A stretch of 46,834 nucleotides of DNA from Sporosarcina psychrophila (lineage in GTDB: Bacteria > Bacillota > Bacilli > Bacillales_A > Planococcaceae): NCBI GenBank assembly GCA_020742515.1, contig DYWT01000140.1:1-46834 (forward strand), given 5' to 3'. Positions 6,974 to 39,170 of the stretch are shown here, in pieces. Each line of letters starts with the position of its first letter. The first letter of the stretch is position 1. A model generated the notes under the pieces. The model saw only the letters and a list, made by a program, of their open reading frames with translations. It made no database searches and was not told the origin of the DNA. A program made the position numbers and the translations under genes.

Positions 6974-7381
6974 ATGTACGATGAAATCTTCCGACAGGTT
7001 CGCGAGTTTATCACGGAAAAACTAAATCCTGACTTCATCATAGTTTTCGCTTCGTACGCAAAACGAACAACACATAGTGAAAGCGATATTGACGTAGCCT
7101 TCTATCGCGAAGATAAGGTGTTTTCTTCATACGAACTCTTTATGTTTGCGCAACGATTAGCAGATATTATCGGTATGGAGGTCGATCTCGTAGATTTAAA
7201 AGAGGCATCCACTGTTTTTGCGGTACAAATCTTTTCAACTGGAGAAGTCATCTATTCAAAAAACGAAAACCTTCGAATGGAATTGCACATGAGGACATAC
7301 AGTATGTACGCACGGCTCAACGAAGAACGTCAGCCGATCATCGATAAAATTATGGAAACGGGGTCAGTTTATGGTGAATGA
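6974..7381 (+). CDS. MntA-like nucleotidyltransferase antitoxin (degenerate motif)
   Basis: A 135-residue minimal nucleotidyltransferase of the type VII MntA family, whose members neutralise HepT toxins by adding AMP to a tyrosine. The signature GSX10DXD is present but altered: ASYAKRTTHSESDID (residues 26-40) has Ala for the Gly, and Lys-Arg where the family usually has Arg-Gly. The two metal-binding Asp residues (38 and 40) remain, and MEVDLVDL probably holds the third acidic residue. GGAGGG lies 8 bases before ATG. It overlaps the downstream hepT frame by 11 bases. Because the partner toxin is broken, the antitoxin may be under relaxed selection; activity is uncertain. Confidence 0.8.
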   Translation: MYDEIFRQVREFITEKLNPDFIIVFASYAKRTTHSESDIDVAFYREDKVFSSYELFMFAQRLADIIGMEVDLVDLKEASTVFAVQIFSTGEVIYSKNENLRMELHMRTYSMYARLNEERQPIIDKIMETGSVYGE

Positions 7382-7778
7382 TGTGATTCTCAATAAAATC
7401 AGTGTCATTGAAAGATGTCTTCAAAGAGTAAAAATCGTCTACGATGATAATACGAATAATTTAACGGATTTCACAAAGCAGGACTCCATCGTTTGAAATA
7501 TCCAACGTGCTTGTGAAGCGTGTATTGACTTAGCCATGCATGTATCAGCAGCCAAGAAGTTCGGTGTTCCACAAAAAAGCAGGGAAGCATTCGAACTTTT
7601 GCATGCTAATTACGTAATTTCAAAAGAAACAGCATCTAACATGAAAGTAATGGTTGGTTTTCGAAATATCGCAGTCCATGATTTTCAGACTATCAATACG
7701 AATATCTTGAAAGAAATTATTGAGAACCACTTGGTAGACTTTACATCTTTTACGGAACAAATTCTTGCCTACGGATGA
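7371..7778 (+). pseudogene. HepT-like HEPN ribonuclease toxin, interrupted by an in-frame TGA
   Basis: The frame starting at ATG 7371 (inside the end of mntA) encodes MVNDVILNKISVIERCL...DFTKQDSIV, then TGA at 7494-7496, then NIQRACEACIDLAMHV... to a stop at 7776-7778. Both halves are in one frame and together give the usual ~135-residue HepT, so a single nonsense change, probably of a Leu codon at position 42, inactivates it. The HEPN motif RX4HXY reads RNIAVHDF (R98, H103, F105): the Tyr that MntA modifies is Phe here. An internal restart at ATG 7536 would give an 80-residue C-terminal piece holding the motif. Sequencing error or readthrough are the alternatives. Confidence 0.85.
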
Positions 7779-7897: not shown

Positions 7898-8352
7898 ACT
7901 TTCAATAATTAGAATTCCTTTCAATACCGCTTCGACGCTTTGTGGATGCCTCCCGCGATAAGCCAGAAAGAAAATCACTTTCAGTCTTATCGCTCCGGCT
8001 ACCACGAAGTCGCGCCTTCGCTGATTTGAAAAAGCCCATTTCATTAGCTGTGATGAAATCTGCAATCTAGAGTGCGTCTTTCTTGAATATAATTAGTATC
8101 AACTAGTAATCACATAAAAGTCTCGGCATATATATCTCAAAATCCCATTTTTCTCGATAATGAACACCCTAGCGAAGGCGCGGCAAAGGGGTCGCCGAAG
8201 CCGTAAGACTGGATGCGAAGCGATAATCCAGGCTTACGGCAAAAGGCATCCCCAAAGCGCCAAGCGTTCTATAATCCACACCCCGAATAACAACTCTCTC
8301 ATTATTGAGAGCCGCAGCAAATTCAATGGGGCTCTTCAATTCAACATATATA
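7898..8352 (-). repeat. Dispersed repeat, copy B
   Basis: The left part (about 7906-8090) matches the reverse complement of 38808-38990 and the right part (8055-8352) matches copy A at 1-242. It ends with TTCAACATATATA (8340-8352), 6 bases short of a minus-strand stop codon. Core motifs GCGAAGGCGC and GGCATCC(C/A)CAAAGCGCC recur in the other copies. Short reading frames here are by-products of the repeat. Confidence 0.75.
8187..8243. repeat. Hairpin insertion inside repeat copy B
   Basis: Relative to copy A, about 57 extra bases sit between CGGCAAA and GGCATCC. They contain a 15-position stem (GCCGTAAG-a-CTGGAT at 8200-8214 with ATCCAG-g-CTTACGGC at 8226-8240, one mismatch) and are bracketed by GGCAAA direct repeats. 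This could be a nested insertion or a module lost from copy A. Confidence 0.6.
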
Positions 8353-8555: not shown

Positions 8556-9647
8556 CTAATCCAACATACCCAATTGGCTTCTAATATAGTTTCCCCGCGC
8601 CTCAATATAAGTCATGATGAAAGCGGGTTCTTCATCGAATACGGCCATATTATCCTTTTGATAGGGGTCCTTTTGGACATATGGCCTGATCAAATCATGC
8701 ATCTCCTGTATTTTGGGTTTCATATAGCTCACATTAAATGTACTGTTTAAAACATCTTCCAACAAATTCTTGTATTGCGTCCGAAATGTTTTTACATCTA
8801 AAATCCTTGCAGTAAGCGTATTAAATCCTTCGATTCTTAAATAGTCTTCACGCATTATTTCTCCATTGACGTCCCTTCCCCATGTCGCATCATAATCCCA
8901 AGGGATAACTTCAAACAGTCCCGTCTCCCCGTTCCGATAAAGTGCATAGTTATGAACAAATCCATCGAAGTTTTGAGTGAAAATAACGCCAGCGAGCCAG
9001 CGAAGATACTTATCCACGTTTACATACTTTACGATTTCATGCTCAAATTCTTCTCTTGAAATGGTATTGATGGCCAGAATCAATTCTTGTAACCGTTCAT
9101 CATCTTCACCTGTCCCGTATTTTTTTTCGTAGCCTAGCTTAAGTGATTTCTTTACTTCTTTATCTAGATTGCTCATTAACGAAAAGTTAGCATCACCATC
9201 AATCGCATAATGTATTGAACCTTCCGGCAGCTGCCGATTCGCTAGGAAACGCTCATCTACTGATTCTATTTCTAAATAAACCCCTTCGTTTTTGCCATTA
9301 ATTTTCAAAAAAACGAAACGGGATTCAGGTGATAGGCAACCAATTTCATTAAAAAAATCAAATGATAATTTATTTCTCAGCATTGATGGATCTTTGAACT
9401 CTGCATTCAAATGAACTTCTTTTGCATTCCTATACATACTTGGTTTGTAAAAAGAGAGTTGGTATGATTTCTTTTGAAAATCCCGGATGTGAGAGCCCCG
9501 ATAGGCAATATCAATTGCATATTTCTTTTTATTTATCGTCAGCTTGGCGGAAACTGGATCATCCATCCAAATATCTTTCCGTAATTCACTCATAATACTC
9601 GGATGTATAAAAAGCTGGTATTCAGGTATTCCCTTGCTAGTATCCAC
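8556..9647 (-). CDS. cotH: CotH spore coat protein kinase
   Basis: CotH is an atypical protein kinase that phosphorylates serines in coat proteins such as CotB and CotG in the mother cell, and is needed for outer coat assembly. This 363-residue protein has the length of B. subtilis CotH. It shows the family landmarks: [18 protein letters not shown] (about 48-65, nucleotide-contacting lysines), [38 protein letters not shown], and [15 protein letters not shown] with the metal-binding acidic residues (about 240-255). The start is GTG at 9647 with GAAGGGAT upstream. It is divergent from two CotG-like genes, as cotH is from cotG in B. subtilis, so these are its likely substrates. A CATACGAAT sequence upstream could be a sporulation -10, but this is weak. 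Confidence 0.92.
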
Positions 9648-9707
9648 GTGAATTCTATCCCTTCACTTTTATCCTATTCGTATGTATTCAAATGTGGGAT
9701 GTTACTC

Positions 9708-9871
9708 GGATATAATAATTATTTTTAAAGTGTAAGCATTTGTCTCTAGCGCTCTTAGTACAACCACGTACTTTAAGAAGAGAGGAAGGATTCACTCTAT
9801 AGCGTTAAGGTGTTCATAAAGAAGGTTATCTACATCTCCTTTCTCTCAATAAGTGAGAAAGGAGGATGGAC
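9708..9871 (+). promoter_or_regulatory. Conserved leader of first CotG-like gene with RBS-sequestering hairpin
   Basis: This leader is clearly homologous to 10208-10379 upstream of the second CotG-like gene. Two structures are visible. AGTAC-N6-GTACT (9757-9772) corresponds to GGTAC-N6-GTACC in the other leader, an A-T to G-C paired change. Just before the gene CTCCTTTCTC (9836-9845) pairs perfectly with GAGAAAGGAG (9855-9864) over a 9-base loop, burying the Shine-Dalgarno GGAGG. A purine run GAGGAAGGA (9782-9790) could compete for the left arm. Confidence 0.65.
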
Positions 9872-10069
9872 ATGTCACTATTTTTCGAAGATGAAATACA
9901 AAAAGCAAAGGAAAAAACCGATCGCTTGGGGTTGGATGAATTAATGTCTCAGGATCCCCGTGATAACCCGGGTAGAGTTAACAGCTATCGAAACACTTCA
10001 CGTAATCAATCCTCTCCTAGCAGAGATAAACATGGTCCCGGCAAACGACCTTCGGGCAGGAGAAAATAA
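9872..10069 (+). CDS. CotG-like small spore coat protein (Ser/Arg-rich tail)
   Basis: A 65-residue protein: MSLFFEDEIQKAKEKTDRLG opens it, then LDELMSQDP, then a basic Ser/Arg/Asn-rich disordered tail ending GKRPSGRRK. The N-terminal pattern I-x2-A-x7-GL-x2-[LF]-x2-Q-[DE]-P is shared with the next gene and, as I remember it, with the start of B. subtilis CotG (IEEAV...GLKDYLYQEP). The tail holds serines next to Arg/Lys, plausible CotH targets. I start at 9872 rather than 9866 because GGAGG then sits 6 bases away and the paralogue starts at the same residue. Late mother-cell expression is expected but not demonstrated. Confidence 0.7.
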   Translation: MSLFFEDEIQKAKEKTDRLGLDELMSQDPRDNPGRVNSYRNTSRNQSSPSRDKHGPGKRPSGRRK

Positions 10070-10103
10070 CAGGAAATGAGAACAGTGCAAGACACCTGTA
10101 ACG

Positions 10104-10140
10104 AGCCAGCGACGCGGTATCCTTTACCGCATTGCTGGCT
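10104..10140 (+). terminator. Hairpin after first CotG-like gene
   Basis: AGCCAGC-gac-GCGGTA pairs with TACCGC-att-GCTGGCT around a 5-base loop. It is followed only by TGATTTAT, so it is either a weak terminator or a processing/stability hairpin between the two coat genes. Confidence 0.5.
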
Positions 10141-10207
10141 TGATTTATAACTTCGCTTTAAGCTGCTAAAAATTCACTTCGTTATAGGTTAAGGTGCGAT
10201 TTTCACC

Positions 10208-10379
10208 TCGTCTGTACATAATTATTTTACAAGTGTGTGCGTTTGCCTCTTACACCGTTGGTACATCTACGTACCTTAAGAGGGAGAGTAAGGAGCGTGT
10301 AGTGCCTCTGAATCTGTTCTGTAAAAAGAATATGGGAGTACACCTCCTTTCTCCGTCCAACAAGAAAGGAGGTTTAAAC
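10208..10379 (+). promoter_or_regulatory. Conserved leader of second CotG-like gene with RBS-sequestering hairpin
   Basis: Homologous to 9708-9871. GGTAC-N6-GTACC (10260-10275) has two G-C closing positions where the first leader has A-T. ACCTCCTTTCT (10342-10352) pairs perfectly with AGAAAGGAGGT (10363-10373) over a 10-base loop whose sequence differs completely from that of the first leader. The stem covers the whole GGAGG ribosome site, 7 bases before the ATG. AAGGAG at 10290-10295 is a possible competing partner for the left arm. Confidence 0.65.
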
Positions 10380-10871
10380 ATGTCACTACCTTTTGATGAT
10401 CAAATACAAAAAGCGATTAATCAGGTTGGCCTTTTGGGATTAGAAAACTTTTTGTTCCAGGAACCTTCCAGTAACAGCCATCAAACGTATAACGACGAGT
10501 GCTGCACTTCGAATCACCAACAGCATACAAGCAGTAATCGGTGTTCTTGCTGTAAAAAACAGCGTACAAGCAGTAATCGACGCTCTTGCTGCAAAAAACA
10601 GCATACTTGCGATAAGCGACGTTCTTGCTGCAAAAAAGAGCGTACTTGCGATAAACGGCGCTCTTGCTGCAAAAAACAGCGTACTTGCGACAAGCGACGC
10701 TCTTGTGGTAAACAACAGCATCCTTGCGACAAGCGATGCTGGTGCGGTCAAAAACACACAAGCAACAAGCGATGCTCTACCGTTGGTCCACAACTTCCGA
10801 GCAAAAAGCGACGTTCTTGCTATGACCAACAACGACCAAGTAACAATCACTATCCTTGCTGTGGTCGATAA
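10380..10871 (+). CDS. CotG-like repetitive, Cys/Arg/Lys-rich spore coat protein
   Basis: A 163-residue protein. The N-terminus MSLPFDDQIQKAINQVGLLG, continuing LENFLFQEP, matches the first CotG-like protein and the remembered CotG start. Then come about nine units of a 13-residue repeat with consensus TCDKRRSCCKKQR (residues about 47-163), more degenerate toward the end. B. subtilis CotG also has a 13-residue basic, Ser-rich repeat, but here cysteine largely replaces Ser/His, giving CC and CDKRRSCC arrangements. Most units carry a serine flanked by basic residues, suited to CotH phosphorylation; the cysteines suggest disulfide or metal cross-linking. The start at 10380 (GGAGG at 7 bases) is preferred over a longer upstream frame, which would run through the leader. 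A 16-bp terminator follows. Confidence 0.75.
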   Translation: MSLPFDDQIQKAINQVGLLGLENFLFQEPSSNSHQTYNDECCTSNHQQHTSSNRCSCCKKQRTSSNRRSCCKKQHTCDKRRSCCKKERTCDKRRSCCKKQRTCDKRRSCGKQQHPCDKRCWCGQKHTSNKRCSTVGPQLPSKKRRSCYDQQRPSNNHYPCCGR

Positions 10872-12760: not shown

Positions 12761-12845
12761 AAGTTCATCCCCTTTTGATTGAATGAATAGCCATTCATAA
12801 CCTATCAATATCATTATATAAGAAAAGTTCAGACAATACAAGACT

Positions 12846-13140
12846 CGAAAAGCGGAAGCGCCTGTTCAGGGGCGACAGGCATAAGACGAATTGGCGACGC
12901 GGTGCTCTTCCCGCACAGCCAATTTGACTTATGACCCGAGCCCCTAGGCGCTGGAGCTAGACAACCGAAAAGCAGAAGCGCCTGTTCAGGGGCGACAGGC
13001 ATAAGACGAATTGGCGACGCGATGCTCTTCCCGCACAGCCAATTTGACTTATGACCCGAGCCCCTAGGCGCTGGAGCTAAACAGTCGAAAAGCGGAAGCG
13101 GCCGTTTAGGGTAAGGCAGCCTAAATTCGCCATGCCCTAC
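12846..13140. repeat. 120-bp tandem repeat, two full copies plus a partial third
   Basis: Units start at 12846, 12966 and 13086, exactly 120 bases apart. The first two differ at only a handful of positions; the third diverges after about 17 bases. Each unit folds on itself: AGCGCCT/AGGCGCT, GGGGC/GCCCC, CATAAG/CTTATG and AATTGGC/GCCAATT pair in order, forming a long imperfect hairpin. The ends (GAAAAGCGGAAGCGCC and GGCGCTGGAGCTAGAC) recur at 25981-26050 and 42871-42914. This 370-base gap contains no gene. Confidence 0.9.
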
Positions 13141-38807: not shown

Positions 38808-39170
38808 ATTCAAGAAAGACGCACTTCAGTTTGCAGATCTCATCACAGATAACGAAATGCTCTTTCTCGCATAGACAATCCAGCGAAGGCGCGACTTCGT
38901 GGTAGCCGGAGCGATAATACTGAAAGTGCTTTCCTTTCCGGCTTATCGCGGGAGGCATCCACAAAGCGCCGAAGCGGTATTAGCAGGATTTCTAATGCAT
39001 CCCTCATGTATTGGAACATTCGTTGATCACATTCAATCGATTTATGGCACGCCTGGTTGCAGGTCTCATCCCCGAAAACGAAATGCGCTTTCTCAACTTG
39101 ACCATCCAGCGAAGGCGCTTCTTCATGGGAGGTATCCACAAGCGCCAAAGCGTGTACCCTGGGAAACACT
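38808..39170 (+). repeat. Dispersed repeat, second type, two degenerate units
   Basis: 38808-38990 matches the reverse complement of 7906-8090. A second, shorter and more diverged unit (about 39058-39170) repeats the CGAAATG(C/T)...CCATCCAGCGAAGGCGC core and the GGGAGG(C/T)ATCCACAA..GCGCC end. No gene is seen; the remaining sequence to 39269 shows nothing I can assign. Confidence 0.65.

Follow-up and report, generated by a model that had tools for sequence, protein, structure and literature searches.

Judged from sequence comparison, the short protein encoded beside cotH in the window (the whole stretch of 46,834 nucleotides of Sporosarcina psychrophila DNA analyzed here) is a member of a conserved repeat-less family and not a decayed substrate, which is what is new here. 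This short form constitutes a conserved family, which is kept even where CotH is absent. In the window, the short protein and the long protein encoded next to it have an N-terminal module of about 29 residues in common, each of the two genes has its own promoter copy, and only one of the proteins carries a repeat tail. The best explanation of the locus is that it is the cotH-cotG locus of the genus with a tandem CotG duplication. Since both the promoter region and the gene start form direct repeats, the tandem duplication took in the control region. The features of the locus are the following.

8556..9647, minus strand: cotH, atypical Ser/Thr kinase CotH, 363 aa, GTG start
9715..9778, plus strand: candidate promoter copy 1 (short gene), repeat D5
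9737..9745 and 9767..9775, plus strand: boxes of copy 1, upstream box CATTTGTCT and sigma-K-like −10 box CGTACTTTA, 30 bp apart
9835..9865, plus strand: leader hairpin of the short gene, 11 bp, 3' arm over the Shine-Dalgarno site
9872..10069, plus strand: short repeat-less CotG-module protein (P0001), 65 aa
9872..9958, plus strand: N-terminal module of the short protein, residues 1 to 29
10218..10281, plus strand: candidate promoter copy 2 (long gene), direct repeat of copy 1
10240..10248 and 10270..10278, plus strand: boxes of copy 2, upstream box CGTTTGCCT and −10 box CGTACCTTA, 30 bp apart
10342..10373, plus strand: leader hairpin of the long gene, 11 bp, 3' arm over the Shine-Dalgarno site
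10380..10871, plus strand: long CotG-like protein (P0002), 163 aa, Cys-rich 13-residue repeats
10380..10466, plus strand: N-terminal module of the long protein, residues 1 to 29
10519..10752, plus strand: 39-nt tandem repeat array, 13-residue units, e.g., QHTCDKRRSCCKK

The cotH locus and its two CotG-like genes

The coordinates and layout put forward in an earlier note on this DNA, with cotH divergent from two tandem small genes, were borne out; on the plus strand, leading away from cotH, the short gene comes first and the long gene second. In a Pfam search CotH covered the PF08757 model completely (positions 1 to 322 of 322; 313 bits, E 3.7e-93), and it is the sole PF08757 match in its own genome. 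It aligns over residues 7 to 363 with the solved relative 5jd9 (spore coat protein H; 495 bits), and in this alignment Asp is found at CotH positions 228 and 251. These are the numbers of the residues whose mutants are termed catalytically inactive in the available text of PMC7821199. With a full-length PF08757 domain and the catalytic Asp residues, the protein belongs to the CotH kinases.

For the long gene, a longer GTG start (10194) was considered and dropped, since the Shine-Dalgarno site and the relatives favor 10380. Its module matched the module profile A1 with an E value of 4.6e-11, the sequence itself being among the 35 rows of A1. About five copies of the 39-nt unit are present, and the tail of 134 residues contains 22 Cys, 18 Ser, and 9 Thr, with 42 Lys/Arg/His versus 8 Asp/Glu. 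The long protein therefore has the central positively charged tandem repeats of a CotG-like protein, and its gene is divergent from cotH in the same cluster, with the short gene sitting between them. Its residues 7 to 29 align with positions 4 to 26 of the 26 positions of NCBIfam model NF047410, at 20.6 bits (E 3.1e-4), which is below the cut-off of 28; in a six-frame search of its own genome the long protein scored 23.5 bits. In a second genome of the species (G021), the long protein has 202 aa compared with 163 aa, the 39 extra residues lying in the repeat array, which indicates that the Cys-rich tail is quick to alter its length.

The short gene starts at 9872, and a further in-frame ATG lies two codons upstream, at 9866. 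The tail of the protein consists of 36 residues, of which six are Ser and one is Thr, and it lacks the central tandem repeats of CotG-like proteins. Its module is nonetheless homologous to that of CotG, scoring 34.2 bits with a model into which no short protein had gone. Searches of the short protein against Pfam and NCBIfam returned no family, NF047410 giving no match at E ≤ 10, and against its own genome (E ≤ 10) only the protein itself and the long protein (E 0.0025) were found. AlphaFold2 placed helices at residues 3 to 19 and 21 to 26 in a weak model (mean pLDDT 60, pTM 0.25). The short proteins of the window and of the second genome are identical. The earlier description of the tails, a short Ser/Arg tail on one copy and a long repeat domain on the other, thus stands, and the Cys-rich nature of the long tail is an addition to it.

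The N-termini of the two proteins, which had been noted to follow a common pattern, are identical at 14 of 29 positions (BLOSUM62 score 68), and none of 20,000 shuffles reached this score. The resemblance noted to B. subtilis CotG also holds, as does the divergent arrangement of cotH and cotG in that group; both were seen at the locus of B. spizizenii (L054), where the sequence is MGHYSHSDIKEAVKSAKKEGLKDYLYQEP. Indeed, at the B. subtilis-group loci CotG begins with the same module as the window proteins. The module is already known as such, given that NF047410 is the CotG/ExsB N-terminal domain. It is therefore known to an annotation library, whereas the available text of PMC9765600 states that the primary sequences of CotG-like proteins show no homology. 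Across genera, the tails found on the module vary widely, being rich in Thr-Ser-Arg-Asn, in His-Lys-Lys-Ser-Arg, in Ser, or in Cys, or repeat-less.

The two candidate promoter copies are 77% identical (9715 to 9778 versus 10218 to 10281), and the gene starts are 86% identical (9870 to 9906 versus 10378 to 10414). The box spacing of copy 1 was measured on the upstream region of L088, which is identical to that of the window. A C[AG]TA...[TC]A box was present in 99 of 115 module-gene upstream regions, at a median of 93 nt before the gene start, versus 46 of 251 control genes from the same loci, an enrichment whose P value is overstated because the relatives are not independent. A CGTA-type −10 box and the upstream box were found together in 13 of the 32 upstream regions from the genus, with a spacing of 30 bp in all 13, whether the gene was short or long; in the remaining 19, one or both of the patterns, as used, were missing. 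The cotG promoter of B. subtilis is a sigma-K promoter with GerE as activator. By analogy, the boxes fit a promoter read by sigma-K with the help of an activator, GerE for example, the factor names being borrowed from B. subtilis cotG.

Each gene also has a leader hairpin, with a shuffle fraction of 0.007 for the short gene (scored on the identical L088 leader); for the long gene, none of 300 shuffles of the upstream region gave a hairpin of this length. Such a hairpin could act as an mRNA stabilizer or as a translation switch. More widely, a run of at least seven nucleotides complementary to the Shine-Dalgarno site was seen in 47 of 96 module-gene leaders and in 42 of 222 control genes, and many of the 43 leaders scored singly were no better than their own shuffles.

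Other features were observed in the window. A small nucleotidyltransferase-like gene (6974 to 7381) followed by a HepT-like gene (7536 to 7778), which we take to resemble an MNT/HepT pair, lies between LysR and cotH and has homologues in L004. A dispersed element around GCATCCCCAAAGCG occurs in four copies with up to two mismatches (136 to 149, 7936 to 7949, 8246 to 8259, and 38955 to 38968) versus 0.29 expected, and the two copies near 8 kb bracket an inverted repeat (7975 to 8022/8171 to 8218). A tandem 120-nt repeat, with two full copies that are 96% identical and a partial third, is found at 12840 to 13111, just upstream of an AMP-ligase gene.

Linkage of the module to CotH across genomes

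The module profile was seeded with 18 sequences, two from the window, 15 from CotH loci, and B. subtilis CotG. The search with CotH found 198 relatives, from which 80 loci were kept. On the opposite strand, no more than 700 nt upstream of where CotH matched, the module was present (at least 10 bits) at 79 of these 80 loci, a count that is not wholly independent because some loci supplied seeds of the profile, and six of the 79 scored merely 10 to 20 bits. The exception was L061, and no module was found at L115 and L116 either. The presence of the module near CotH at 79 of 80 loci in many genera argues for a front end that would be of common descent, with a tail of quick turnover. The proposal of one module with exchangeable tails thus agrees with what is found next to CotH.

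Among the 261 genomes of the order, 47 contain the module (E ≤ 0.001) and 115 a PF08757 protein (E ≤ 1e-10). A gap was seen between 294.8 and 282.1 bits, after which the cut for canonical CotH was set at 294 bits or more, giving 43 loci in 41 genomes. At all 43, the opposite strand carries the module no farther than 1.2 kb from the CotH domain match, and the neighborhood check that had been suggested for the N-terminal pattern therefore came out in its favor in both sets of loci. Twenty-eight of the 43 loci are in the genus, and their sequences each show one or more copies whose tail is long and basic; as for the other 15, four sequences were seen and 11 are known by open frames of 122 to 269 codons alone. 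The module was near just one of the 27 noncanonical loci, defined by 255 to 283 bits with lower-scoring PF08757 rows left out, and the CotH of this locus (G010:C25) carries internal stop codons.

In a sample at the level of the class, CotH (E ≤ 1e-74) was found in 35 of 398 genomes and the module (E ≤ 0.001) in 10, all of them within those 35. The 19 CotH loci from this sample (L180 to L198) comprise eight with a clear module (at least 35 bits), four with diverged starts only (3 to 12 bits, judged by eye), and seven with no module, one of which is near a contig end. As many CotH genes of the class lack a module that the profile detects, the pairing may not hold throughout the class.

Module loci that are not beside a listed CotH encode short repeat-less proteins in 14 of 15 cases, and the 15th (G144:C4) encodes a 135-aa repeat protein in a genome with two CotH proteins. 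Every repeat-bearing module seen has CotH in its genome or locus, two of them (G144:C4 and G324:C11) not being adjacent to it. The pattern without CotH, which the earlier note had named as counting against its proposal, was thus encountered for the short form and not for the repeat-bearing form. A second module within the fetched cotH locus was also seen in other genera (L048, L056, L069, L070, and L073), perhaps as independent duplications.

A short repeat-less family and genomes without CotH

The family of the short protein has 24 members of 58 to 71 aa, which start M(S)LFFEDEI and have nine invariant residues. A comparison of the family with profile A1 is circular because A1 contains two short sequences, and homology was therefore tested with a model made from long modules only. 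With this model all 24 proteins scored 9.7 to 34.2 bits, the best of 6417 reported shuffles scoring 9.3 bits, so that the two lowest members (9.7 and 10.4 bits) barely beat the shuffles. Searched against NF047410, the 24 proteins gave a single match (E 0.15). The best Pfam match of the family, Bac_DNA_binding (E 0.012, one of 24 members), was taken as chance, and the plasmid collection searched gave no match.

The coding sequences point to conservation of the protein. In 33 of 35 within-subgroup pairs dN was lower than dS, e.g., 0.02 versus 1.07. The 15 pairs of L155 to L160 have dN of 0.013 to 0.155, dS of 0.32 to 2.6, and dN/dS of 0.01 to 0.18, and the 10 pairs of the window subgroup have dN of 0.02 to 0.26, dS of 0.05 to 0.96, and dN/dS of 0.17 to 0.44. 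The two pairs with dN above dS are L162-L164 (0.076 versus 0.059) and L162-L165 (0.265 versus 0.192); in the third pair of that trio, L164-L165, dN is near parity with dS.

Short members stand beside cotH in the window, G021, G020, G034, G036, and G037, with that of G010 on the far side, and lie some 7 to 11 kb from cotH in G009, G013, G014, G015, G042, and G055. Six genomes have the module without canonical CotH (G006, G008, G025, G048, G050, and G059), and a search of the genus at E ≤ 0.01 added a further genome with a short member, G058. G008 has a noncanonical CotH along with its short repeat-less member. In the six others (G006, G025, G048, G050, G058, and G059) no PF08757 match was found at E ≤ 0.001, and in each of them the module protein is short and repeat-less; the short protein, although beside cotH in the window, is thus not confined to genomes with CotH. 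The completeness of these genomes is 78% for G048, 83% for G059, and 98 to 100% for the other four. CotE was found in 40 of 40 genomes tested, including these six and G008, which indicates that the CotH-free genomes look like those of spore-formers.

G048 has an ABC permease, the AMP-ligase, the short gene, and the S9 peptidase in the order of the window, with no cotH and no long cotG between the AMP-ligase and the peptidase; the genes that separate cotH from the peptidase in the window are absent as well. The short gene of G058 is about 0.9 kb away from this S9 peptidase, and a single other open frame lies in the interval. These neighborhoods show that the short gene is able to stay at the cotH site without CotH. 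At four loci with CotH-unlinked short genes no coat context was found among the neighbors, which were SelO, toast_rack, short-chain dehydrogenase, AMP-ligase, S9 peptidase, and two proteins without a Pfam match. The short members of CotH-free genomes, being without repeats, show that the module is separable from both CotH and the phospho-acceptor repeats. In a literature search read mostly at the level of its listed entries, with few subscription journals in its scope, no account of a repeat-less CotG paralogue was seen.

Possible roles of the module and comparison with known systems

We hold it probable that the module serves in coat assembly, that the long protein is a CotH substrate of the CotG type, and that the short protein is a natural analogue of repeat-less CotG. 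In the available text of PMC7821199, CotH is described as phosphorylating CotG and CotB. CotG devoid of repeats still promotes CotB maturation (PMC7821199, there citing Saggese 2016; PMC9765600), and without its central repeats the coat becomes tight and less permeable, the repeats being regarded as spacers (PMC9765600). Set beside a natural repeat-less family that occurs without CotH, this literature has as its simplest reading that the module assembles and that the tail spaces and accepts phosphate. Because the short family is kept without CotH, the shared segment probably attaches the proteins to the coat and not to the kinase. A point against such a role in coat assembly is that the short protein lacks the C-terminal region of CotG, which is also credited with CotB binding (PMC9765600, available text).

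In mechanistic terms, the module would find its partner in the coat, in a CotB-like protein, in a further module, or in the CotE layer, and not in CotH. The long protein would serve as substrate and spacer; CotH would phosphorylate Ser and Thr in the basic tail of this protein, and cross-links may form through its numerous Cys residues. The short protein would take the same binding partner without CotH, like the laboratory CotG without central repeats, and, being free of a spacer, might reduce the distance between coat components. If it brings them closer, the short-to-long ratio would set coat tightness. We infer the coat role, the partner, and the effect on permeability from these comparisons. 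A wider version, which we find doubtful, is that the genus keeps a CotH-independent short CotG, which competes with the long spacer or caps it, with their ratio setting the mesh size and permeability of the coat and the module being an ancient docking tag for any tail.

The alternative that both proteins are CotH substrates, with the module docking to CotH and the short protein acting as a low-capacity substrate, is in our judgment unlikely. It would account for how closely, and in divergent orientation, the module is linked to canonical CotH, and a docking model also predicts that the repeat form is almost always linked to CotH. The seven Ser/Thr residues of the short tail lie amid basic residues, which makes a limited phosphorylation of this tail possible, and six cotH-linked short tails have 4 to 8 Ser and Thr versus 2 to 5 in six from CotH-free genomes. 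However, short-form proteins occur in the six CotH-free genomes and elsewhere away from cotH, and 9 of the 24 short tails have just one or two Ser/Thr. Moreover, in yeast two-hybrid experiments CotG bound CotB and itself and not CotH, a weak negative because no partner at all gave a signal with the CotH fusions (PMC7821199, Table 1 and section 2.6 of the available text). The earlier suggestions of a short copy that is a second phospho-acceptor substrate and of a CotH-docking module accordingly found no support, given the lack of repeats in the former and the presence of short-form modules in genomes without a PF08757 match.

An improbable alternative makes the module a tag for regulation or stability, such as a handle for a chaperone or protease before assembly; its presence with every tail type and the small helical N-terminus predicted at low confidence by AlphaFold2 would agree with this. 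That the short gene is a decaying, functionless cotG duplicate that lost its repeats is very improbable and was discarded for its conservation, since even though repeat arrays easily alter length within one species, the first copy at L003/L089 retains a long tail (137 aa), and two pairs show dN above dS, the 24 members keep their invariant residues, dN/dS is low in both larger subgroups, the protein is identical in both genomes of the species, and many members retain the promoter elements.

With the module read as a coat-assembly segment, the short family would part module function from phosphorylation in nature, and would offer a small, directly testable tool for what the CotG N-terminus binds.

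In a comparison with known systems, the window CotH shares with 5jd9 the aligned span and both Asp residues and shows no notable difference from it. Within the cotB-cotG-cotH cluster of B. subtilis, cotG is likewise divergent from cotH, and CotG likewise has the module followed by a tail of repeats that are rich in Ser and basic residues (L050 and L052 to L054). In contrast, the long protein of the window is Cys-rich with 13-residue units, it lacks the WKDGN-type C-terminus in which the B. subtilis-group relatives end, and a second, repeat-less copy accompanies it. ExsB of the B. cereus group is described as homologous to CotG, its repeat region being phosphorylated (PMC7821199, available text), and the name of the NCBIfam model is what ties it to the window proteins. 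The laboratory CotG without central repeats, as described in the available text of PMC9765600, is made up of the N-terminal segment and a short basic end and in this is like the short protein; the construct, however, retains the C-terminus of CotG, whereas the short family has a tail of its own.
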